Shown: piece by piece, positions 6,060-24,462 of the stretch
How the letters are laid out: every line of letters starts with the position of its first letter
Numbering within the stretch: the stretch's first letter is position 1
Source of the DNA: Streptomyces sp. NK15101
GTDB lineage: Bacteria; Actinomycetota; Actinomycetes; Streptomycetales; Streptomycetaceae
DNA length: 64,000 nucleotides
Direction of reading: 5' to 3'
Assembly (NCBI RefSeq): GCF_020400725.1
Contig: NZ_JAINVG010000020.1
Location: forward strand, 1 to 64,000
The notes under the pieces: model-generated
What the model saw: only the letters and a program-made list of their open reading frames with translations
Database searches by the model: none
What the model was told of the DNA's origin: nothing
Program-made: the position numbers and the translations under genes

Positions 6060-7091
6060 TCAGCGCTCGACGAGACGGTCGAACTGCGTCGTGGTGTGGC
6101 GCAGATGTGCCACGAGCTCGTCGCCCACCCTGGGCTCCTGGGCGTCGGCCGGCACGAACAGGATCGACACCTGCATGTGCGGCGGCTCGGCGAACCAGCG
6201 CTGCTTCCCGGCCCAGACGAACGGCGAAAGGTTCCGGTTGACGGTGGCCAGGCCCGCCCGGGCGACGCCCTTGGCGCGCGGCATGACGCCGTGCATCGCC
6301 TTCGGGGCCTCCAGGCCCACGCCGTGGGAGGTGCCGCCGGCGACGACGACCAGCCAGCCGTCCGACGCGGCCTTCTGCTGGCGGTAGCCGAACCGGTCGC
6401 CCTTGGCGACCCGGGTCACGTCGAGGACGGAGCCCCGGTACTCCGTGGCCTCGTGGTCGCCCAGCCACAGCCGGGTGCCGATCCGGGCACGGAAGCGGGT
6501 CTGCGGGAACTGCTGCTGCAGCCGGGCCTGCTCCTCGGCCCGCAGGTGGCTCACGAACATGGTGTGCAGCGGCAGCCGGGCGGCCCGCAGCCGGTCCATC
6601 CAGGCGATGACCTCCTCGACCGCGTCCGTGCCGTCCGGGCGGTCCAGGGGCAGGTGGAGGGCGAAGCCCTCCAGACGGACGTCCTCGATGGCGGCGTGGA
6701 GCTGCTGGAGCTCCTCCTCGCGCACGCCGTGCCGCTTCATCGAGCTCATGCACTCGATCACGACCCGGGCGCCCACCAGGGCGTGGACGCCGTCCACGGA
6801 CGACACGGAACGGACCACCCGGTCGGGCAGCGGAACCGGCTCCTCGCCCCGGCGGAAGGGGGTGAGGACCAGCAGGTCGCCACCGAACCAGTCCTTGATC
6901 TTCGCGGCTTCGTACGTGGTGCCCACGGCGAGCATGTCGGCGCCGAAACGGGCCGCCTCGTCCGCGAGCCGCTCGTGCCCGAAGCCGTACCCGTTGCCCT
7001 TGCAGACCGGAATGAGACCGGGGAACTGGTCGATGACGGTCTTCTGGTGCGCCCGCCAGCGAGCGGTGTCGACGTAGAGGGAGAGCGCCAT
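6060..7091 (-). CDS. alanine racemase N-terminal-fold PLP protein
   Basis: 343-residue homologue of the alanine racemase barrel. K31 in PVCKGNGYGFG sits where alanine racemase has its PLP lysine (VKADAYGHG). The C-terminal half retains GTRLWLGD and the family beta domain. It diverges strongly from canonical Alr, so the amino acid used is uncertain. It lies 71 bp from femX, which is transcribed first on the same strand, so a role in supplying or modifying an amino acid for peptidoglycan is a reasonable inference. It ends on the terminator at 5987-6019. Confidence 0.75.
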   Translation of the reverse strand: MALSLYVDTARWRAHQKTVIDQFPGLIPVCKGNGYGFGHERLADEAARFGADMLAVGTTYEAAKIKDWFGGDLLVLTPFRRGEEPVPLPDRVVRSVSSVDGVHALVGARVVIECMSSMKRHGVREEELQQLHAAIEDVRLEGFALHLPLDRPDGTDAVEEVIAWMDRLRAARLPLHTMFVSHLRAEEQARLQQQFPQTRFRARIGTRLWLGDHEATEYRGSVLDVTRVAKGDRFGYRQQKAASDGWLVVVAGGTSHGVGLEAPKAMHGVMPRAKGVARAGLATVNRNLSPFVWAGKQRWFAEPPHMQVSILFVPADAQEPRVGDELVAHLRHTTTQFDRLVER

Positions 7092-7162
7092 GGCCGGCCC
7101 GGAACCTTTCTGATGGCAGCGGTGGGTCAGAGGTGTGTACGAGGACGAAGCCTACGGAACGG

Positions 7163-8281
7163 TCAGCGGCGCGACATGTAGATGTCGAGCGCCTTGTGCA
7201 GCAGCTTGTTCAGCGGGAAGTCCCACTCGCCGACGTACTCGACGGCCTCGCCGCCCGTGCCCACCTTGAACTGGATGAGCCCGAAGAGGTGGTCGGTCTC
7301 GTCGAGCGAGTCCGAGATGCCCCGCAGGTCGTACACGGTCGCGCCCATGGCGTACGCGTCGCGGAGCATCCGCCACTGCATCGCGTTCGAGGGCCGGACC
7401 TCACGGCCGATGTTGTCGGAGGCACCGTAGGAGTACCAGACGTGCCCGCCGACGACGAGCATGGTCGCGGCGGAGAGGTTCACACCGTTGTGGCGGGCGA
7501 AGTAGAGCCGCATGCGGTTGGGGTCCTCGTTGTTGAGGACGGTCCACATGCGCTGGAAGTACGACAGCGGGCGCGGCCGGAAGTGGTCGCGGACGGCCGT
7601 GATCTCGTACAGCCGCTGCCACTCGGCCAGGTCCTCGTAGCCGCCCTGGACGACCTCGACACCGGCCTTCTCGGCCTTCTTGATGTTGCGGCGCCACAGC
7701 TGGTTGAAGCCCTTGAGGACGTCGTCGAGCGAGCGGTTCGCCAGCGGGACCTGGAAGACGTAGCGCGGCTGCACGTCGCCGAAGCCGGCGCCGCCGTCCT
7801 CGCCCTGCTGCCAGCCCATCTTCCGCAGCCGGTCCGCGACCTCGAAGGCGCGCGGCTCGATGTGGGTGGCCTCGACGTCCTTGAGGCGCTTGACGTCCGG
7901 GTCCTGGATGCCCGCCTTGATGGCGGCCGAGTCCCAGCGGCGGATGACCACCGGCGGGCCCATCTTCACCGAGAAGGCGCCCTGGTGCTTGAGGTGCGCC
8001 AGCATCGGCTGCAGCCAGTCGTCCAGGTTGGGCGCGTACCAGTTGATGACCGGGCCCTCGGGCAGATAGGCGAGGTAGCGCTTGATCTTCGGCAGCTGGC
8101 GGTAGAGCACCAGGCCGGCGCCGACGAGCTCGCCGGACTTGTCGAACCAGCCGAGGTTCTCCGAGCGCCACTCGGTCTTCACGTCAGCCCACGCCGGGAC
8201 CTGGCAGTGGCTCGCGGCGGGCTGGCTCTGGATGAATGCCAGATGCTGCTCACGGCTGATGGTCCTCAGGGTCAGGCTCAT
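7163..8281 (-). CDS. femX: FemX-type lipid II aminoacyltransferase (FemAB family)
   Basis: 372-residue Fem transferase. In Streptomyces FemX uses Gly-tRNA to add the single glycine bridge to the LL-diaminopimelate residue of lipid II. Visible family features are the N-terminal [20 protein letters not shown], the GNAT-fold core ([27 protein letters not shown]), and [20 protein letters not shown], which is characteristic of Fem proteins. The open frame runs on to 8710, but the ATG at 8281 has a GAGGAG site and the correct family start. It is followed by the alanine-racemase-fold gene. Known to be essential in S. coelicolor. Confidence 0.9.
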
Positions 8282-8400
8282 GCGGGGCGCTCCTCGGCAG
8301 GTGTGTCCCCATCGGTCAGGGGCTCCGGCTCTCGCGCCGAAGCCTACTGCGACCGGGGAGCGCCCCGAATGGGCGTGTGTGCCCCGACGCGCGGTCGGAC

Positions 8401-8703
8401 TCAGCCGAAGAGGCCGCCGTGCGCCATTCCGAGGTAGAAGCCGACCGCCGAGGCGCCGAGTCCGATGATCATCAGGAAGCGCTCGCGTGTCGTCACGGAG
8501 ATGAACTGTCCGTACGCGCCGGTCAGGATGCCGATCAGACCCGACCAGGAGCTCAACAGGTGCAGGTTGTGGAACTGCGCCGTGACGAAGGCGAGGATCC
8601 CCAGGGCCAGTGTCACGCCCATCAGGGCGTCCTGGAGCGGATGAGGCTTGCCGTCGGTCGCGAAGAGCGAGTGGCCGGGGTCGGGTCGCATTGCCTGTGC
8701 CAT
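8401..8703 (-). CDS. small conserved membrane protein
   Basis: 100 residues with three hydrophobic segments ([50 protein letters not shown]) after a short soluble N-terminus. AGGAGGTG precedes the ATG. No enzymatic motif is visible and I do not recognise a named family beyond conserved actinobacterial membrane protein. It is upstream of femX on the same strand, 119 bp away. Confidence 0.75.
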
Positions 8704-8988
8704 GGGGCACCTCCTGGCGTGGCTACCGGAAGGCGGCGCATCCTAGCGCCGCCCACATCCGTTGTGTACAGATTGCGTCCCCTCCCCGGGGAATTTCAAC
8801 CGCAAGCCGATGTGCGGGTACTCTGTACAGCTGCGCCGGTGTCTGCCCAGGTCCCTCGGGGATCCCCGACAGCGCTCCTCGCTCGCCGAGGGGGACTGTC
8901 AGTGGTGGCGGATACCGTTGCTTACGCATCACGACCCTCCTGCCACGGAACGACCGTGGCCGCTGAGTCCAAAGGAGGTGGGTTCCAC
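8704..8988 (+). promoter_or_regulatory. rpsF operon leader region
   Basis: No gene is seen in these 285 bp. TTCAAC (8794-8799) and TACTCT with 18-bp spacing form a plausible housekeeping promoter. TGTACAG occurs twice, at 8765-8771 and 8824-8830, one copy on each side of that promoter. The region also carries the start signals for the divergent membrane-protein gene. Confidence 0.35.
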
Positions 8989-10816: not shown

Positions 10817-12151
10817 TCAGCGGGTGGCGCCCGTGACGATCCAGCGGCCGGAGCGCATACGGAACCAGAGCGTTCCCATCCGGACCGTCATCATCAGGGT
10901 CATCGCCCACCAGAGAGCGGTCAGCCCGCCGCCGAGGGCCGGGACCAGGAGCGCGACCGGGGCGAAGACCGCCAGCGTGAGCAGCATCGCCCAGGCCAGG
11001 TAGGGGCCGTCTCCCGCACCCATCAGAACCCCGTCGAGGACGAAGACGACTCCGGAGACCGGCTGGGAGATCGCGACCACGAGCAGGGCCGGGAGCAGGG
11101 CGTCCTGCACGGTGGTGTCGCCGGTGAAGAGGGGGACGAACAAGGGACGGGCGACGATGAGCAGCGCGCCGAGCACCACCCCGGAGACCACGCCCCACTG
11201 GACCATCCGGCGGCAGACCTGTCGTGCCCCGTCGGCGTCGTCCGCACCGAGGTAGCGGCCGATGATGGCCTGGCCCGCGATGGCGATCGCGTCGAGCGCG
11301 AAGGCCATCAGGCTCCACAGGGACAGGATGATCTGGTGGGCGGCGACCTCGGCGTCTCCGAGCCTGGCGGCGACGGCCGTGGCGATCATCAGGACCGCGC
11401 GCAGGGAGAGCGTGCGGACCAGGAGAGGGGCGCCTGCCTGGGCGGAGGCGCGTATGCCGGCCGGGTCGGGGCGGAGGGAGGCGCCGTGGCGCCGGGCGCC
11501 CCGTACGACCACGACGAGGTAGGCGGCGGCCATGCCGCACTGGGCGATGACCGTGCCCCAGGCGGATCCGGCGATTCCCAGGCCGGCCCCGTAGACCAGT
11601 CCGGCGTTGAGCGCGCCGTTGGCCGCGAAGCCGGCGATGGCCACGTGGAGCGGTGTGCGGGTGTCCTGGAGGCCGCGCAGGACGCCGGTGGCGGCCAGGA
11701 CCACCAGCATGGCGGGGATTCCCAGGCTGGAGATCCTGAGATAGGTGACGGCGTACGGGGCGGCGGTGTCCGAGGCGCCGAAGACGTCGACGAGCCATGG
11801 TGCCGTGGGCAGCGTCAGCGCGACGACGGCGGCGCCGAGGAGGAGTGCCAGCCAGATGCCGTCCATGCCCTGTCGGATGGCGGCCTGGAGATCGCCCGCG
11901 CCCACGCGTCGGGCTACGGCGGCCGTGGTGGCGTAGGCGAGGAAGACGAAGACGCTGACGGCGGTGGAGAGGAGTGCTGCGGCGATCGCGAGGCCCGCGA
12001 GCTGGGGTGTGCCGAGATGGCCCACGATGGCGCTGTCGACCATGAGGAACAGCGGCTCGGCGACGAGGGCACCGAAGGCCGGCAGGGCGAGGGAGACGAT
12101 CTCGCGGTCGTGCTGTCGGCGGGTGTCCGAGGTCGCGGGGGCCTGAGTCAT
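10817..12151 (-). CDS. MATE family (DinF-like) efflux transporter
   Basis: 444 residues with twelve hydrophobic segments in two similar halves, as in cation-coupled multidrug and toxic-compound extruders. The N-terminus reads HDREIVSLALPAFGALVAEP with FLMVDSAIVGHLGTPQLAGL, the usual MATE entry; RGLQDTRTPL is characteristic of the DinF branch. Substrate is unknown. It is convergent with rplI and divergent from dnaB, with which it shares the 12152-12575 gap. Confidence 0.9.
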   Translation of the reverse strand: MTQAPATSDTRRQHDREIVSLALPAFGALVAEPLFLMVDSAIVGHLGTPQLAGLAIAAALLSTAVSVFVFLAYATTAAVARRVGAGDLQAAIRQGMDGIWLALLLGAAVVALTLPTAPWLVDVFGASDTAAPYAVTYLRISSLGIPAMLVVLAATGVLRGLQDTRTPLHVAIAGFAANGALNAGLVYGAGLGIAGSAWGTVIAQCGMAAAYLVVVVRGARRHGASLRPDPAGIRASAQAGAPLLVRTLSLRAVLMIATAVAARLGDAEVAAHQIILSLWSLMAFALDAIAIAGQAIIGRYLGADDADGARQVCRRMVQWGVVSGVVLGALLIVARPLFVPLFTGDTTVQDALLPALLVVAISQPVSGVVFVLDGVLMGAGDGPYLAWAMLLTLAVFAPVALLVPALGGGLTALWWAMTLMMTVRMGTLWFRMRSGRWIVTGATR

Positions 12152-12575
12152 GAGCTCAATCTAATCTTCCACAGGTAAGAGATGCAATTGGTAAGCGATC
12201 CTTACTTTGGCCTGGTGCGGGGCTTCGGGTGTGGGCCGTTTGTTCTGATCTTGGTCCCGGTGGAAAACTTTTTCTCCCCCACAGCCCGTGGATGGGGAAA
12301 GTGCAGGTCAGATGGGTGAGATCGGGGGTGTTATGAGTTTGTCCACATGGCTGTCCCCCGCTCCGTGCACAGGATCCGGGGAGTTCTCCACAGCATCTGG
12401 CCCGTAACCCACAGGGCCTGTGGATAACCAGATTGGCTGGGGCTCTCCACAGGCCTACCGTGGTCCGGCGCCCGACGCGCCAGAAGCGGTCGCGAAGCCA
12501 CTCTTTGATCAAGGCCGTGGCGTAAGAAAGAGTGGCATGGCGAGGTCCGCGGAGCGGACGGGAGGAGGTGGCTTG
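12152..12575 (+). promoter_or_regulatory. dnaB leader with DnaA-box group
   Basis: No gene is supported here. Perfect DnaA boxes are TTGTCCACA at 12339-12347 and TTATCCACA on the minus strand at 12419-12427. Weaker ones are TTCTCCACA at 12384-12392 and CTCTCCACA at 12443-12451. All four fall within 113 bp, 125 bp or more upstream of dnaB. DnaA control of helicase expression, or a DnaA titration site, is inferred. Confidence 0.65.
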
Positions 12576-14057
12576 GTGAGCGTTCCCGAGCCCATGGACG
12601 ACCCCTGGGCCGACAGCGGACCGAGCGACCGGCTGCCCACCCGTACCCGGGGTGAAGGACGCGGTCGCGGCCGCGGCCGCGACGACCGGCACGAGCGGGG
12701 CGGCGAGGGTCCTTGGGACGGAGGGCTCTCCGGCTTCGAGCGCGTTCCCCCGCAGGACCTCGACGCCGAGCAGTCCGTCCTCGGCGGCATGCTGCTCTCC
12801 AAGGACGCCATCGCGGACGTCGTGGAGATCATCAAGGGCCACGACTTCTACAAGCCCGCCCACGAGACCGTCTACGCGGCCATCCTCGACCTCTACGCCA
12901 AGGGCGAGCCGGCCGACCCGATCACGGTCGGCGCCGAGCTCACCAAGCGCGGCGAGATCACCCGCGTCGGCGGCGCCTCCTATCTCCACACCCTGGTCCA
13001 GTCGGTCCCGACCGCGGCCAACGCCTCGTACTACGCGCAGATCGTCCACGAGCGCGCGGTCCTGCGCCGCCTCGTGGAGGCCGGCACCAAGATCACGCAG
13101 ATGGGCTACGCGGCCGACGGGGACGTCGACGAGATCGTGAACTCGGCCCAGGCCGAGATCTACGCCGTCACCGAGCAGCGCACCACCGAGGACTACCTGC
13201 CGCTCGGCGACATCATGGAGGGGGCTCTCGACGAGATCGAGGCGATCGGCTCCCGGAGCGGCGAGATGACCGGTGTGCCCACCGGCTTCACGGACCTCGA
13301 CGCGCTCACCAACGGACTGCACCCGGGCCAGATGATCATCATCGCGGCCCGTCCCGCCATGGGTAAGTCGACCCTCGCCCTGGACTTCGCCCGGGCGGCC
13401 TCCATCAAGCACAACCTGCCCAGCGTCATCTTCTCCCTCGAAATGGGCCGCAACGAGATCGCGATGCGTCTCCTCTCGGCCGAGGCCCGGGTCGCGCTCC
13501 ACCACATGCGCTCCGGCACGATGACCGACGAGGACTGGACGCGCCTCGCCCGCCGGATGCCGGACGTCTCCCAGGCCCCGCTGTACATCGACGACTCCCC
13601 GAACCTGTCGATGATGGAGATCCGCGCGAAGTGCCGCCGGCTCAAGCAGCGCAACGGCCTGAAGCTCGTCATCATCGACTACCTGCAGCTCATGCAGTCG
13701 GGCGGTTCCAAGCGGCAGGAGAGCCGTCAGCAAGAGGTCTCCGACATGTCGCGAAACCTGAAGCTCCTCGCCAAGGAGCTGGAACTGCCGGTGATCGCGC
13801 TCTCCCAGCTGAACCGTGGCCCCGAACAGCGCACCGACAAGAAGCCGATGGTCTCCGACCTGCGTGAGTCCGGCTCCATCGAGCAGGACGCCGACATGGT
13901 CATCCTGCTGCACCGCGAGGACGCCTACGAGAAGGAGTCACCGCGCGCGGGCGAGGCGGACATCATCGTGGGCAAGCACCGTAACGGCCCGACGGCCACG
14001 ATCACCGTGGCCTTCCAGGGCCACTACTCGCGTTTCGTGGACATGGCCCAGACCTGA
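12576..14057 (+). CDS. dnaB: replicative DNA helicase DnaB
   Basis: 493-residue hexameric helicase that unwinds the fork 5' to 3'. After an acidic/basic low-complexity N-terminus come the DnaB N domain (PQDLDAEQSVLGGMLLSKDA) and the RecA-like motor with Walker A ARPAMGKST, Walker B LVIIDYLQLM and LSQLNRGPEQRTDKKP. No intein or insertion is seen. The GTG at 12576 follows GGAGGAGG; an ATG at 12420 is in frame but overlaps a DnaA box and has no ribosome site. Confidence 0.95.
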   Translation: MSVPEPMDDPWADSGPSDRLPTRTRGEGRGRGRGRDDRHERGGEGPWDGGLSGFERVPPQDLDAEQSVLGGMLLSKDAIADVVEIIKGHDFYKPAHETVYAAILDLYAKGEPADPITVGAELTKRGEITRVGGASYLHTLVQSVPTAANASYYAQIVHERAVLRRLVEAGTKITQMGYAADGDVDEIVNSAQAEIYAVTEQRTTEDYLPLGDIMEGALDEIEAIGSRSGEMTGVPTGFTDLDALTNGLHPGQMIIIAARPAMGKSTLALDFARAASIKHNLPSVIFSLEMGRNEIAMRLLSAEARVALHHMRSGTMTDEDWTRLARRMPDVSQAPLYIDDSPNLSMMEIRAKCRRLKQRNGLKLVIIDYLQLMQSGGSKRQESRQQEVSDMSRNLKLLAKELELPVIALSQLNRGPEQRTDKKPMVSDLRESGSIEQDADMVILLHREDAYEKESPRAGEADIIVGKHRNGPTATITVAFQGHYSRFVDMAQT

Positions 14058-14063
14058 TCCCAG

Positions 14064-14205
14064 AGGTTGTAGGGTCGCAATTTTCGTGGCACGGTCTCAG
14101 CTGCGACGGCACTTATGCCGCCGTTGTGAGACTCCCTGTCGCACTGCAGGGTGTCGGATTCCCACTCGCTGCATAGCGAGCGGCGATGCTCGCCCCGTAC
14201 GTGAG
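14064..14205 (-). repeat. dispersed repeat, copy A
   Basis: On the minus strand this reads TGCCGTCGCAGCTGAGAC then GTGCCACGAAAATTGCGAC. The same order of blocks appears in copy B (15062-15245). Both copies continue on the plus strand into GTCGGATTCCCAC and GGCGATGC. Short hairpins are present (CTCGCT at 14165-14170 with AGCGAG at 14175-14180). No open frame is supported. It lies 7 bp after dnaB and 39 bp before the PPOX gene. Confidence 0.6.
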
Positions 14206-14244
14206 GTGCGATCGCGTTTTCCTGCTCCGGCGCGGCGCGGTTCC

Positions 14245-14685
14245 TCAGTCCTGGGCGGGGACGTCCAGGGCGGTCCCGTACAGGCGCGAGACCCGGAGCA
14301 GGATGGTCACGCGCCGGTCAGGCAGCGGCTGATCGCCAGGGGCCGCCTCGTCGGCCGGGTCCGCGATCTCCGCCTCTCCCTCCGCCACGGCGAACGACCA
14401 GATGTCCGGGCCGCTGACATGCAGTGAGGCGTGCGGGTCGCGGCGCAACTGGCGGACCTTGAGGCGGTCGGCGGTGGAGGAGACCCTCAGGACGCGCTCC
14501 TCGGCGTTCCAGTCGTAGAGGACGGTCGACAGGTGAGGGTGGCCGGTGCTCCTGACGCTAGCGAGTACGCCGAACTGCTGCCGGCTCAACAGCTGGGAGA
14601 GCTCCTGGTCGGTGAGCACTCGGGGGGCCGGGCCGTCGTTCTGGGTGGTGCCGGTGGTGGTCTCAGTGGCGGTGTGCTCGCTCAC
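14245..14685 (-). CDS. PPOX-class split-barrel FMN/F420-binding protein
   Basis: 146 residues. After a Thr-rich leader the pyridoxamine-5'-phosphate-oxidase-like fold begins (LTDQELSQLLSRQQFGVLAS, HPHLSTVLYDWN, RVSSTADRLKVRQLRRDPH, HVSGPDIWSFAVAEGEAEI). Relatives bind FMN or the deazaflavin F420 and reduce small organic compounds; which cofactor applies here is not visible. GTG start at 14685 with GAAAGG upstream. The gene is flanked by repeat copies A and B and appears to be an addition between dnaB and the serine hydrolase compared with my memory of S. coelicolor. Confidence 0.8.
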   Translation of the reverse strand: MSEHTATETTTGTTQNDGPAPRVLTDQELSQLLSRQQFGVLASVRSTGHPHLSTVLYDWNAEERVLRVSSTADRLKVRQLRRDPHASLHVSGPDIWSFAVAEGEAEIADPADEAAPGDQPLPDRRVTILLRVSRLYGTALDVPAQD

Positions 14686-14963
14686 GTCGGTCAGCCTTTC
14701 GGTGGTTGGGGTGGGGCGGGAGGGCAGGTCGGACAGCTGCGGCGTGGATGGCGAGCCGGCTCATCGGCGGCGGGCGAGGCGCGCGACGGCGCGGAGCCGA
14801 ATGCGGCAAACACGTGGTCTCCCCTGTCAGTTGTCGCAGCAAGGGAGACCGTAGCAGATGGTTTCGTTGCAGACTATTTTCTTCGGTCTCATTCAGGGGC
14901 AGGGGGCGCCGTCGTCGACCGGTCGGTTCAGGGCTCACCGGTCGGTCAAGGCCGTGCAGGAAA
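14686..14963. other. intergenic, no gene seen
   Basis: No reading frame with a plausible start, ribosome site and codon bias was found in this stretch between the PPOX gene and repeat copy B. It includes two close GACCGGTCGGT/TCACCGGTCGGT words near 14920-14946 and the promoter side of the PPOX gene. Base composition is less GC-rich than the core genes. Confidence 0.5.
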
Positions 14964-15245
14964 TGCCACGTCCGTGAAACCGAGAGGCTGTGCCATCGAT
15001 CTGAGACGGCGGAAGAACCGCTGGTCGGCGAATGCGGCCTGCCACGCGCGACGAGGCCCTACAGAGGTGTGGGGCCTCAAAATTCGCGGCACAATCTCAG
15101 CCCCGATGGCACATCGGTGGCACTCGTGCCGTCTTCGTGAGGCCGGCTGGTCGTCCTGTCGGTTGAACCTGTCGGATTCCCACCCGTTCTCGTTCGTGCT
15201 GCCCTCTTCTCATCCGGGCACGTGCTGAGAGGCGATGCCTCGTCT
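14964..15245. repeat. dispersed repeat, compound copy B
   Basis: Two parts. B1 (14964-15060, plus strand) reads TGCCACGTCCGTGAAACCG, TGTGCCATCGATCTGAGAC, CGCTGGTCGG, TGCCACG and aligns along its length with copy C (17239-17340). B2 (15062-15245) carries the block in the opposite orientation (minus strand TGCCATCGGGGCTGAGA, TGTGCCGCGAATTTTGAGG) and then GTCGGATTCCCAC, as in copy A. So one block matches the repeat on each side. Confidence 0.6.
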
Positions 15246-15261
15246 CCCGTGGGACCTCAGC

Positions 15262-16152
15262 TCACTTCGCCGGAACCTGATGGATCGGAGACGCCGACGG
15301 TGTCAGGTCCGCGAACGAGGTCGGCCACGCGACGTCATCGATGGCGAGCCACGGCGCAGCGGCTACGGCGGTAGGTGTCACCCCGGTGAACGCTTTGACC
15401 TCGCGGTGGAGGTGGGCCTGGTCGGCGTAGCCGCTTTCGGCCGCCACCTGGGCGGCGGTGTTGCCCGCCGCGAGGAGATGGGCGGCGTGATCGAAGCGCA
15501 CCAACCGGGCGGCGTGCTTGGGCGTGAGGCCGATCTGGGACCGGAAGCGGGACCACAGGCGCTTACGGCTCCAACCCACCTCGCTCGCAAGGCTGTCGAC
15601 GCGCACCCGTCCCCGGCTGGTGCGCATCAGCCGCCAGGCAGCGGCGACCTCTGGATCAAGCGACGGGCGGGCGCTCATCCGTCGGCCGAGGGCGTCCGCT
15701 GCGATCGTGAACCGCTCGTCCCACGACGCGGCGGCCCGCAGCCTTTCCTCGGTTCGCCCGGCGTCGCGGCCCCAGACATCCTCCAGGGTGACCACCGTCC
15801 CGCTGAGGTCGGTCGATGCTCCGAACACCGTGAACGCCAGGACCGGCGACAACCGGATCTGGAGGCACTCGATCCCTCCGGCCGCCCGGCCTCCGAGCCG
15901 AAGGTCGCCCGGTACCAGCCCGACGACCGTGCTGCCGCATGCGCGCCGGCCGTGGGCGTCGTGGACAAGGCTGTCTCCGTCGCTCAGGTCCACGAACAGA
16001 GTCACCGAGGGGTGCGCGACCATGGCGATATCCACGTCTGCCGGAGCACACTGGCGGAACCCGGCCATGCTGACCCCCGGCAGCCGACCGGGCTGCCGGG
16101 GCACGGCGACCTCCACCGACGCCCAGTCAGGTGGTGATTCGGCGGACTTCAC
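15262..16152 (-). CDS. AraC family transcriptional regulator
   Basis: 296 residues. The C-terminal 100 residues form the double helix-turn-helix of AraC/XylS proteins (VDSLASEVGWSRKRLWSRFR, then QVAAESGYADQAHLHREVKA and FTGVTPT). The N-terminal half is a cupin-like sensing domain. It lies 23 bp after the alpha/beta hydrolase on the same strand, so probably co-transcribed, and may control it. Codon choice is visibly less GC-biased than in neighbouring core genes. The pair sits between repeat copies B and C. Confidence 0.85.
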   Translation of the reverse strand: MKSAESPPDWASVEVAVPRQPGRLPGVSMAGFRQCAPADVDIAMVAHPSVTLFVDLSDGDSLVHDAHGRRACGSTVVGLVPGDLRLGGRAAGGIECLQIRLSPVLAFTVFGASTDLSGTVVTLEDVWGRDAGRTEERLRAAASWDERFTIAADALGRRMSARPSLDPEVAAAWRLMRTSRGRVRVDSLASEVGWSRKRLWSRFRSQIGLTPKHAARLVRFDHAAHLLAAGNTAAQVAAESGYADQAHLHREVKAFTGVTPTAVAAAPWLAIDDVAWPTSFADLTPSASPIHQVPAK

Positions 16153-16175
16153 AGCACCAGGCTAGGCCATGGGTG

Positions 16176-16985
16176 TCAGCGGCCCGTCGCCGCGAAGCGC
16201 AGCAGCAACTCACTGGTCGCCTCCGGCGCTTCGAGCATGGGGAAGTGCCCGACGTCGGGCAGTTGCTCGACTCGCGCGTTCGGCACCGTGTCGTAGTGGT
16301 GCGCCGAAGACGGATCCCAGCGGGGGTCGGCAGCGCCGAAGATCACCAGAACCGGGACGTCGAGTGCGGTCAGGCGCGCGGGTACGCTCCGCTCGGCGAT
16401 GTACGCGGCGTTGTGGCGCAGCACCGTCCTGAACGTGCGGTAACCGATGCCCCGTACGTCGGCGACCAGGTCGTCCGGGACGTCCACCGGGCGGTTGCAC
16501 ACCGCGGTCACCCCCCGGCGGAGCATCGCGTCGGAACGGACTCTCCATAGAAGCGGGCCGAGCGGCGGGTCGATCAGGACCCGAAGGAGGACGGGCTGCG
16601 GAAGGAGCGCGTCGGGACTCGGGCCACTGCTGATCAGTGCGAGCGAACCCACCAGGTCCGGGCGCTGTTCGGCGAGGGCGGTGGCGATGTACCCGCCGCT
16701 GGAGTGCCCGGCCACGGTGACCGGACGAAGGCCGAGCCCATCGAGCGCCTCGGCCAGTCTGGCTGCCTGCTCAGGCACGTCGTACGGCGGCGCGGGCGGG
16801 GACTGACCGTGGCCCGGGAGGTCGACCCGGATGACGTGATACCGGCTGGCCAGTGCCGACATCACCGGGCCCCAGGAGCTGCCCGAGGCCCCCGATCCGT
16901 GGATGAGCACGAGCGGCGGCGCTTCCCGCGGGCCGTCGTGGACCACGTGCATCCCGTGTACGTGCTTGCCGTCGTAGATAGCCAT
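16176..16985 (-). CDS. alpha/beta hydrolase
   Basis: 269 residues of the alpha/beta-hydrolase fold. Oxyanion region LVLIHGSGASGSSWG, nucleophile elbow GHSSGG, candidate Asp in FGAADPRWDP, and catalytic His in VGHFPMLEAPE. Esterase, lactonase or C-C hydrolase activities are all possible. It is the first gene of a two-gene unit with the AraC regulator. ATG start at 16985; repeat copy C and an AT-richer gap lie upstream. Confidence 0.85.
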   Translation of the reverse strand: MAIYDGKHVHGMHVVHDGPREAPPLVLIHGSGASGSSWGPVMSALASRYHVIRVDLPGHGQSPPAPPYDVPEQAARLAEALDGLGLRPVTVAGHSSGGYIATALAEQRPDLVGSLALISSGPSPDALLPQPVLLRVLIDPPLGPLLWRVRSDAMLRRGVTAVCNRPVDVPDDLVADVRGIGYRTFRTVLRHNAAYIAERSVPARLTALDVPVLVIFGAADPRWDPSSAHHYDTVPNARVEQLPDVGHFPMLEAPEATSELLLRFAATGR

Positions 16986-17238
16986 GCTCGGGAGGATGCC
17001 GGGGCTGCCGGCCCTCGGTCTTGTACAAATGTCGTCACGGGGCCGAGCATCGCCAGGACTGCCGTCTCCACGGCGAGCGGGACTTCCGCGAAAGCCAGGC
17101 CGTTAGAGGTCGGCAGCCGTCGGCAGTCTCGAACTGCCGGGCATTCATACAGTTCGACGTGTCCCTGTGTACCGGCTACACCGCGACGGGACATCAGCAC
17201 ATCGCGGTCCTGGCCGTTCGTGAGGCGTGTCGAGGATG
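16986..17238. other. intergenic, promoter side of the hydrolase-AraC unit
   Basis: No gene is supported. GGTCTTGTACAAATG sits close to the hydrolase start. The stretch holds several short CGGCAG words (17111-17127) and runs into repeat copy C at 17239. Confidence 0.4.
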
Positions 17239-17340
17239 TGCCACGACTCATGAGACCGGGGCGTGTGCCATCGCCGTGAGACAGCTTGAAAGCAGCTGGT
17301 CGGTAGCCCGCCCCGTGCCACGGGCCGTGAGACCCTGCAA
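17239..17340 (+). repeat. dispersed repeat, copy C
   Basis: Reads TGCCACGACTCATGAGACCG, TGTGCCATCGCCGTGAGAC, AGCTGGTCGG, then TGCCACGGGCCGTGAGAC. The order and spacing match B1 at 14964-15060, at roughly 70 percent identity by eye. It is in the same orientation, so B1 and C are direct repeats around the hydrolase-AraC unit. Confidence 0.6.
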
Positions 17341-17371
17341 GAGGGAAGTTCCGCGGCCGGCATCGCGTTGG

Positions 17372-18763
17372 ATGGGTTCTGTGACGACATCTTCCGAAGC
17401 CTTGTTGCCCGGTACCGAGCGGGCTCTGCTGCACCGCGTCGCGGTCGCCCAGTCCGAAGGGCGGGCACCGTCCTTCGTGGGGGCGGTGGTCCGTGACGGT
17501 TCGCTGGTGTGGAGCGGCGCGCGCAGTTGCGTGGACGGCCATGCGCCGGACGCCGACACCCAGTTCAGGATCGGGTCCATCACCAAGGTGTTCACCGCCG
17601 TCCTGGTGATGAGGCTCCGCGACGAGGGCCTGCTCGGGCTCGACGATCCGCTGGAACGGCACCTGAAGGGAACGGGCGTCGGCGAGGTGACGATCGCCCA
17701 ACTCCTGGGCCACACCGGCGGACTCGCCGCCGAGACGCCCGGCTCCTGGTGGGAGCGGTCCTCGGCCGCCCTGCGGCCGGGGCTCTCCGACGTCCTGGGG
17801 GAGCAGCCCTTCCTCCAGTCGCCGGGGCGCCGGCACCACTACTCCAACCCCGGCTACACGCTGCTGGGTTCACTGGTCGAGGCGGTCCGGGGGGTGTCCT
17901 GGGAAGAGGCGCTGCGGCGCGAGATCCTGGAGCCGTTGGGGATGGGTCGCACGACGGTCGATCCCGTCGCCCCGCACGCGGGCGGCTGGGCGGTGCACCC
18001 CTGGGCCGACGTCATGCTGCCCGAACCGTCCGAGGACCTCGGTCTGATGGCATCGGCCGGACAGCTCTGGTCGACGGCCGCCGACCTCGCCCGCTTCGCC
18101 GCCTTCCTCGCTGCGGGGGACGAGCGGGTGCTCTCCGCGGCGACCGTGGAGGAGATGCGTGCCCCCGCCTCTCCCGCCGGGGAGGGCGACTGGGAGGGGA
18201 GCTACGGACTCGGTCTCCAGCTGGTGCACAAGGACGGCCGCACCCTGATCGGCCACAGCGGCTCCCTGCCCGGCTTCGTCGCCTCCCTGTGGGTGAGCGT
18301 GGAGGACGGCCTTGCGGGCATCGCGCTCGCCAACGCCACCTCAGGTCCGCTGACAGGAGTCGTGGCCGCCGATCTCGTACGGATCGTGGCGGAGGCGGAG
18401 CCCCGGTTCCCGGAGCCGTGGCGGCCCCTTCCCGAGGCCGAGGTCGACCAGGAGCTGCTGTCCCTCACGGGACCCTGGTATTGGGGCACGTACGTCTACG
18501 GGCTGCGGCTCGGTCCCGAGCGGAGCGTGGTGCTCGAACCGCTGCGGGGCGCCGGACGACGGGCCCGCTTCCGGGCGCTGCCCGAGGGCGGCTGGGTCGG
18601 CCTGAACGGCTACTACGCGGGCGAGACGCTCAGGGCGGTGCGGCGCGCCGACGGCAGCGTGAGCCATCTCGACCTCGGCTCGTTCGTCTTCACGCGGGAG
18701 CCGTACGAGCCGGGGGACGCGGTTCCGGGCGGTGTGGACGAGGCGGGCTGGCGCGGTCTCTGA
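17372..18763 (+). CDS. serine hydrolase of the beta-lactamase/class C PBP family
   Basis: 463 residues. The active-site triad motifs are present: SITK in RIGSITKVFTAVLV, YSN in HHYSNPGYTLLG, and HSG in IGHSGSLPGF. A C-terminal 110-residue beta domain follows. No signal peptide is visible, so a cytoplasmic or tail-anchored esterase/peptidase is as likely as a true beta-lactamase. The ATG at 17372 is taken; a GTG at 17381 is an alternative. Two parS sites lie just beyond the stop. Confidence 0.85.
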   Translation: MGSVTTSSEALLPGTERALLHRVAVAQSEGRAPSFVGAVVRDGSLVWSGARSCVDGHAPDADTQFRIGSITKVFTAVLVMRLRDEGLLGLDDPLERHLKGTGVGEVTIAQLLGHTGGLAAETPGSWWERSSAALRPGLSDVLGEQPFLQSPGRRHHYSNPGYTLLGSLVEAVRGVSWEEALRREILEPLGMGRTTVDPVAPHAGGWAVHPWADVMLPEPSEDLGLMASAGQLWSTAADLARFAAFLAAGDERVLSAATVEEMRAPASPAGEGDWEGSYGLGLQLVHKDGRTLIGHSGSLPGFVASLWVSVEDGLAGIALANATSGPLTGVVAADLVRIVAEAEPRFPEPWRPLPEAEVDQELLSLTGPWYWGTYVYGLRLGPERSVVLEPLRGAGRRARFRALPEGGWVGLNGYYAGETLRAVRRADGSVSHLDLGSFVFTREPYEPGDAVPGGVDEAGWRGL

Positions 18764-24223: not shown

Positions 24224-24390
24224 GTCCGCCCCCTCCCGGCCGCATGGCCGTCCGACTCAGGCGGTCGGCTGACTGCGCCTCAGGACCGTCCAACTATAAA
24301 TAAGTCGATAGGTCGCTGTCGCTACCGTGATTGGACACTGACGCTCAGTCAACTAGCCTTGTTCAGGCGGTTTCCGAGCGGGAAACCGAG

Positions 24391-24427
24391 GGCGTTCCGA
24401 GCCACGAGGGGGGAGGCTCGGAGCGCC
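24391..24427 (-). terminator. terminator after the cystathionine lyase-like gene
   Basis: Thirteen-bp stem with one G-T wobble (24391-24403 with 24415-24427), 36 bp beyond the stop of the minus-strand gene ending at 24463 and upstream of LysR. Confidence 0.65.
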
Positions 24428-24462
24428 CCGCTCCGCGTACGCCGGGCCCGGGACCACCGGTC

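Follow-up and report, generated by a model that had tools for sequence, protein, structure and literature searches.

Two cassettes with Tn7-like ends and no transposase gene are stacked behind dnaB in Streptomyces sp. NK15101

Introduction

How do accessory genes come to lie between two genes that are direct neighbours in other Streptomyces? The question is raised by the first 64,000 nucleotides (nt) of contig NZ_JAINVG010000020.1 of Streptomyces sp. NK15101 (assembly GCF_020400725.1), referred to here as the window, in which three non-coding repeats, A, B and C, alternate with two sets of accessory genes between the replicative helicase gene dnaB and a serine hydrolase gene. A preliminary description of this sequence saw a dispersed repeat family and suggested that cassettes had been inserted or exchanged by recombination between direct repeats. 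The analysis presented here leads elsewhere: the cassettes are very probably two non-autonomous Tn7-like transposons that inserted successively at a Tn7-like attachment site behind dnaB and were moved by the transposase of a relative. This reading draws on the ends of the units, their target duplications and order of insertion, empty sites, use of the dnaB site in many genomes, the tns genes of relatives found there, and arrays of units on plasmids. Loci (L), genomes (G) and contigs (C) are cited by our own numbers.

The repeats are two kinds of transposon end

The three repeats lie where they had first been placed, and the similarity of A to the second part of B (B2), and of the first part of B (B1) to C, exceeds that in 1000 shuffles each. 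Local alignment of A with B2 scores 35 with 34 of 45 columns identical, as against a mean of 16.0 and a maximum of 26 in dinucleotide shuffles; B1 and C score 45 with 75 of 105 columns identical, a value that no shuffle reached (maximum 27). Scores of 16 for A with B1 and 17 for A with C are at chance level, and the repeats are therefore of two types, A/B2 and B1/C. Repeat B is composite, a right end followed by a left end with 4 nt between them.

The borders first drawn around the repeats required correction, to left ends that start at 14068 and 15068 and right ends at 14964-15063 and 17239-17339. Element 1, of 996 base pairs (bp), then occupies 14068-15063 and element 2, of 2272 bp, 15068-17339, both delimited by ends and duplication. 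Their ends, all read on the forward strand, were scored with profiles built from 14 right and 9 left ends (sequence-only models used 16 and 10): E is 6.1e-19 for the left end of element 1 (repeat A, 14068-14160), which holds inverted GTGCC-N-TGAGAC site repeats, 3.5e-22 for its right end (B1, 14964-15063), which is also delimited by the end alignment, 2.2e-24 for the left end of element 2 (B2, 15068-15179) and 1.7e-17 for its right end (repeat C, 17239-17339), values that are not independent since the window ends belong to the training sets. Terminal inverted repeats are TGTAGGG/CCCTACA in element 1 and TGTGGGG/CCCTGCA in element 2, the latter closing on GCA, one base off. The end alignments thus show the TGT...ACA termini and several site repeats per end that characterise Tn7-like transposons. 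Each cassette is bounded not by direct repeats, as had been supposed, but by two ends, left and right, of different sequence, which share short terminal inverted repeats and subterminal site repeats; the appearance of direct repeats comes from the head-to-tail arrangement of two units that belong to one transposon family.

The notion of a dispersed repeat did not survive a whole-genome motif scan with at most one mismatch. It returned 13 matches as against 9 for a reversed control pattern, so that the repeat is not a genome-wide one; three of the 13, including the sole exact one (14094-14112), fall in the dnaB locus. A phage origin was also rejected, the right end of element 1 having no match in phage records.

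The inner part of the left end of element 2 (15153-15235, CCTGTCGCATTGAAGCTGTCGGATTCTCAC-like) recurs in other Streptomyces genomes (L044-L047), where the copies adjoin left-end-like sequences that bear other site words.

Target duplications, insertion order and the empty site

Element 1 begins 10 nt past the stop codon of dnaB (14055-14057). Both units have exact 5-bp target duplications, and it is these that mark transposition, rather than repeat-mediated homologous recombination, as the most likely way in which they arrived. For element 1 the duplication is GAGGT, at 14063-14067 and 15064-15068. Because the right copy includes the first base of element 2, element 2 must have inserted first, and element 1, the younger insertion, evidently landed in the left border of the older one. 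The duplication of element 2 is AGAGG: the copy immediately to its left (15063-15067) begins on the last base of element 1, the right copy lies at 17340-17344, and AGAGG at 14062-14066 is the original left copy.

Such duplications are not confined to the window. They are exact in 14 of 30 left/right end pairs as against 2 of 870 mismatched pairings, the 30 being hand-picked adjacent matches in one orientation of which some are composite (L066) or have a trimmed right end (L125). Homologous recombination between direct repeats, as first proposed, could swap cassettes; these are indeed flanked by repeats of one type that point the same way, and exchange between two left or two right ends could delete units. 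As the origin of the cassettes it is nevertheless very unlikely, for it leaves unexplained the exact duplications, the dissimilarity of left and right ends and the fixed distance to dnaB, and units that stand alone, with one end of each kind, are common. Scarcely credible is the view that the repeats are RNA structures, terminators or riboregulators, whose repetition is incidental: the inverted site repeats of the left ends could fold, to judge from their letters, but the cassette locus has no Rfam match, and the same sequences bound units with target duplications.

If both units are removed and a single copy of the duplication is kept, 45 nt separate the dnaB stop from the hydrolase start at 17381. 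The joined flanks (473 nt) align full-length as one piece of 441-522 nt in at least 25 of 121 Streptomyces genomes, and the gap at the empty site of G076 is 44 nt. The preliminary description was thus right in holding that two accessory cassettes had been inserted between dnaB and the serine hydrolase gene with precise ends at the repeats, and the cassettes are not present at this place in nearly all Streptomyces, since so many genomes have the empty site. The dnaB frame (12420-14057, forward strand; Pfam DnaB and DnaB_C) is the longest possible, and its real start may lie later; the serine hydrolase of the beta-lactamase family (17381-18763, forward strand; PF00144, 5.7e-64), with a GTG start picked by eye, is the neighbour of dnaB at the empty site.

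Cassettes without transposase genes

Element 1 carries a PPOX-class (pyridoxamine-phosphate-oxidase fold) gene of 146 residues (14245-14685, reverse strand; PF01243, 8.9e-11), which scores 78.0 bits against the F420-dependent PPOX family NCBIfam TIGR03618, just under the cut-off of 79.05. Element 2 carries an AraC-family regulator (15262-16152; PF12833, 1e-17) and an alpha/beta hydrolase (16176-16985; PF12697, 1.7e-31), both on the reverse strand. Pfam upholds these assignments, as it does those of dnaB and the serine hydrolase, all of which had been made from the sequence at the outset.

Neither unit encodes TnsA, TnsB, TnsC or TniQ/TnsD, the proteins that a Tn7-like transposon carries within itself. 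The window genome is absent from the TnsB relatives among the matches listed (E 1e-20, 295 Streptomyces genomes), and it has no TniQ at E 1e-3 in a search of 13 genomes of which 5 were positive. Because tns genes are lacking in the units and were not found in the genome, the units are classed only as non-autonomous derivatives; with the ends of an autonomous family and no transposase gene, they have the make-up of such elements, among which miniature inverted-repeat transposable elements (MITEs) are counted.

Units of this kind also occur elsewhere. No match to TnsA, TnsB, TnsC or TniQ (tblastn, 1e-8) occurs in 11 of the 14 units with exact duplications, namely both window units, L064, L072, L116, L118, L122, L135, L145, L154 and L155; L114, L194 and L202 are the tns-bearing three. 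The cargo of tns-free units includes an SgcJ/EcaC-type protein (L064), a D-Ala-D-Ala dipeptidase-family protein (L118) and a RibD_C reductase (L073, L127), while the small frames of L122, L154 and L155 matched no family. Units of 210-233 bp (L066, L126, L145, L148 twice, L151) hold little beyond two ends. Element 1 itself recurs with the same ends, away from dnaB, in contig C18 of G162, where identity is 91% over 14072-15064.

The PPOX gene of element 1 also occurs without these ends in other Streptomyces (L231, L232, L234-L242, L246). In L234, L236-L238, L241 and L242, about 1.4 kilobases (kb) that are absent from the cassette lie between the PPOX gene and the upstream region, hinting at how the cassette captured the gene.

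The dnaB 3' end as a landing site

Loci were fetched for many, though not all, of the left-end matches, and of the 60 left ends that they hold (E up to 2e-3) 21 start 7-16 nt past a dnaB stop, the window's own and one on a plasmid included; three more belong to later units behind a dnaB site. Such constant spacing behind a conserved gene is typical of Tn7-like insertion. The dnaB-site left ends mostly follow the peptide YSRFVDMAQT or a close variant. A third left end of the window genome (C167:38685; L104, position 2001) starts 7 nt behind a short stretch, RLQGRYSRFIDMTRT plus stop, that was read by eye as a dnaB tail; a RibD_C-like gene, likewise identified by eye, lies upstream, and no right end is found within 16 kb behind it.

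The ends are widespread within the genus, the left end occurring in 64 and the right end in 105 of 295 Streptomyces genomes (end models, E 1e-3 or better). A class-wide sample gave left ends in 5 of 296 genomes: the window genome, another Streptomyces, in which the end is not at dnaB, G457, with a weak match and no dnaB, and G484 and G552, of another genus, in which the left end lies directly behind dnaB together with a TnsA stretch.

Autonomous relatives and a proposed source of the transposase

In G166 a relative is laid out in the order left end, TnsA, TnsB, TnsC, TniQ and right ends. Its TnsA matches NF033179 (TnsA_like_Actin) at 1.9e-76, its TnsC is a TniB/AAA protein, its TniQ, of 878 residues, scores 2.5e-21, and its TnsB contains Mu-transpos_C above cut-off and rve below cut-off; by gene set and order this is a Tn7-like transposon. 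TnsB relatives are present in at least 140 of 295 Streptomyces genomes (E 1e-20 or better).

At nine loci tns genes lie directly behind dnaB (L114, L115, L143, L146, L194, L195, L197, L201, L202), and all but L201 have a TniQ match. Exact duplications are found in L114, L194 and L202, and the contig ends inside the tns operon in L146 and L201. The left-end profile detected no left end in L195, L197 and L201, which are tied to the dnaB site by a TnsA start about 220-255 nt past dnaB.

Taken with the tns-free units, these elements suggest a mechanism in which movement occurs in trans. A TnsA-TnsB transposase, supplied by an autonomous relative that visited the cell, would bind the repeated GTGCC(A/G)-N-TGAGAC sites in both ends of a cassette. 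A TniQ/TnsD-type selector may read the end of the dnaB coding sequence and, together with TnsC, guide the complex to a position some 10 nt beyond the stop, where the cassette would be joined with a 5-bp duplication. The dnaB end would be left intact, and because of this the site would be reusable and units could accumulate head to tail.

Some relatives at the dnaB site have further features of their own. In L114 (5206-8706), the autonomous element at the dnaB site of G293 encodes an AAA protein together with ABC-three-component proteins (CTD6, MC2), which likely form a defence system, and the element in L143 has two TniQ-related frames, at 6132-8786 and 10930-12405, the second of which matches residues 394-870 only. 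Contig C60 of G248 (229780-255379; L129, L130) contains three end-bounded tandem units, the first with tnsABC and tniQ and the third with a distant tnsABC set (28-33% identity), and hence two different transposases at one site.

Arrays on plasmids

Units are stacked on plasmids too. In NZ_CP108530 (L214) only the last 110 residues of DnaB are matched and five units follow, the first four at spacings of 4-5 nt and the last after a gap of 48 nt; in NZ_CP108854 (L215) a match to the last 59 residues precedes three units 4-6 nt apart. Across loci, stacked units are mostly 2-7 nt apart. A 1246-bp unit, fourth in one array and second in the other, is 96.5% identical from exactly the left end to the right end, and a unit with a PIG-L deacetylase gene, second in one array and third in the other, is 94% identical. 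The RibD_C unit of L215 is 98% identical over 815 bp, up to the right end, to that at the chromosomal dnaB site L073. Units with Tn7-type ends here behave much as integron cassettes do.

On a third plasmid, NZ_CP109310 (L064), the dnaB match is incomplete (residues 362-542) and a single unit follows it. Truncated dnaB tails are established for L214 and L215 and likely for L064, but for no other plasmid. Truncation as a rule for plasmids was discarded, since the dnaB of all six loci L216-L220 and L223 is long, its alignment starting at residue 110 or before; these loci were chosen for lacking a listed gene under the dnaB match, the cause of which is an annotation gap. In L217 a degenerate left end lies beside the long dnaB.

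The arrays also bear on whether units without tns genes were ever mobile as such. They might be dead remnants of full tnsABC-tniQ elements from which the tns genes were deleted after insertion. Decayed intermediates do occur: L149 retains TnsA and a remnant of TniQ, L109 has pieces of TniQ, and G143 has lost its left end. The window genome lacks a detected TnsB or TniQ relative at the thresholds used. Remnants, however, would not be expected to recur with identical borders at different sites and in arrays of differing order, as a tns-free unit does, nor is the lack of any tns match in 11 of 14 exact-duplication units in their favour, and we regard this explanation as improbable.

A more far-reaching proposal, to which we give somewhat less than even credence, is that Streptomyces and other actinobacteria own an integron-like, Tn7-type cassette system in which tns-free cassettes of one gene each, bounded by standard ends, would circulate and be stacked head to tail at the dnaB 3' end as a common safe site, truncated dnaB tails on linear plasmids would serve as landing platforms, and a site word would act as the address that determines which transposase moves which cassette. 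The word before TGAGAC varies, from GTGCCAC in the window to TGAAGC, TGACAC, CCGACAC and GGACAC in other units. Left and right words of a unit agree at a mean of 4.5 of 7 positions, as against 3.68 in 5000 reshufflings (maximum 4.21), in a test on 28 pairs that leaves out L036 and L125 and ignores kinship, related rows such as L154/L155 and L145/L151 being uncorrected. To the eye, agreement is poor in L073, L109, L116 and L143. The words may represent transposase specificity classes.

Weighing the transposition reading

Several observations weigh against two trans-mobilised Tn7-like cassettes homing to dnaB. The case for them is drawn from sequence. An exact duplication is lacking in 16 of the 30 end pairs, including the PPOX unit in G162 C18, and the PPOX gene that is the cargo of element 1 is mostly found outside such units. 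By the position test 36 of the 60 left ends do not adjoin dnaB, some of these being later array units or lying at contig or stretch ends, and elements with like ends also occupy other sites. At the presumed dnaB tail of L104, tblastn gave no DnaB match. The TnsC of L143 and the TnsB of L202 match only partly or in pieces, and no autonomous element with site words exactly matching those of the window was identified.

Target choice is also poorly tracked by protein phylogeny. On a tree of 25 TniQ proteins, 8 of them at dnaB, the dnaB label must change 5 times, a number as low in 33 of 500 shuffles, and on one of 28 TnsB proteins 6 times; the TniQ of L115, at dnaB, is 72% identical to that of L129, at another site. 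In its simple form, the idea that a TniQ clade accounts for use of the dnaB site was rejected on the strength of these label changes.

Relation to known systems

Known Tn7-like transposons resemble the dnaB elements in their TGT...ACA ends, several site repeats per end and 5-bp duplication, and in inserting a set short distance beyond a conserved gene's 3' end; tnsABC and tniQ are present in relatives whose ends are of this kind. They differ in that the window units have no transposase and in that the sites named in two papers are glmS, tRNA genes, parE and comM (PMC10293859, PMC11406308) rather than dnaB. Tn7 usually displays target immunity, according to one of these papers (PMC11406308), whereas here units stack at a single site; immunity must therefore be weak, absent or class-specific. 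An Actinobacteria-dominated clade of Tn7-like elements with no experimentally characterised member is described by Benler et al. 2021 (PMC8649781), and tnsB and tnsC genes beside type I-E loci of clustered regularly interspaced short palindromic repeats (CRISPR) in Streptomycetaceae are, in another paper, thought inactive as transposons (PMC12231136).

MITEs and other non-autonomous elements are alike in consisting of ends only, or of ends and cargo, and in presumably being moved by the transposase of another element, but whole genes are present in the window units and in many others, which also have a common homing site. Integron cassettes, whose hallmarks are an attC recombination site and the IntI tyrosine recombinase, likewise form head-to-tail arrays of single genes at an anchored site and are shuffled between plasmids, as are the units of L214 and L215. 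The units described here differ in being anchored at the end of dnaB and bounded by Tn7-type ends with target duplications, which integron cassettes are not known to have; the arrays work as an integron would but are not classed as one.

In the portions of the literature searched, outside which lie preprints and most subscription journals, neither dnaB as a Tn7-like site nor such cassettes are described. The word dnaB is absent from the text available of PMC10293859, PMC8649781 and PMC11406308, and in the passages accessible of papers that mention both 'Tn7-like' and 'DnaB', DnaB serves as a negative control or turns up in sentences on other matters, and no link is drawn. The wider cassette-array system looks new.

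Tn7-like transposons are known to home to a few conserved genes. If the proposal holds, stacked tns-free units would account for the spread of small genes among Streptomyces with no vehicle in sight, genes for PPOX proteins, RibD_C reductases, VanX-like dipeptidases, PIG-L deacetylases and the AraC-hydrolase pair among them. That a single site is used again and again has a direct bearing on Tn7 target immunity, and the dnaB site would offer a natural safe place for gene insertion in industrial actinomycetes.

Other landing sites and further observations

A second recurrent site lies just upstream of the end-joining gene Ku, marked by the left ends of L107, L118, L128 and L135. In L135 the frame facing the left end contains MPRSIWSGAISFGLVTVPVNV, which we take to be the start of Ku; the flanks of L107, L118 and L128 are similar to that of L135, and in the plasmid locus L063 a right end adjoins an annotated Ku gene, around 15466-16108. 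A third site lies directly behind a gene ending ...RRVEVSFPRG..., presumably of the OmpA family (L066, left end at 16908; L117, at 2001). At a fourth, a motif like CTGTCTGCCCCCGGCGAACT precedes the left end by about 20-30 nt (L068, L122, L123, L129, L138, L154, L155). The sole Rfam match in the window lies away from the cassettes, at 24307-24431, and is to the Streptomyces RNA Scr3920 (104 bits).

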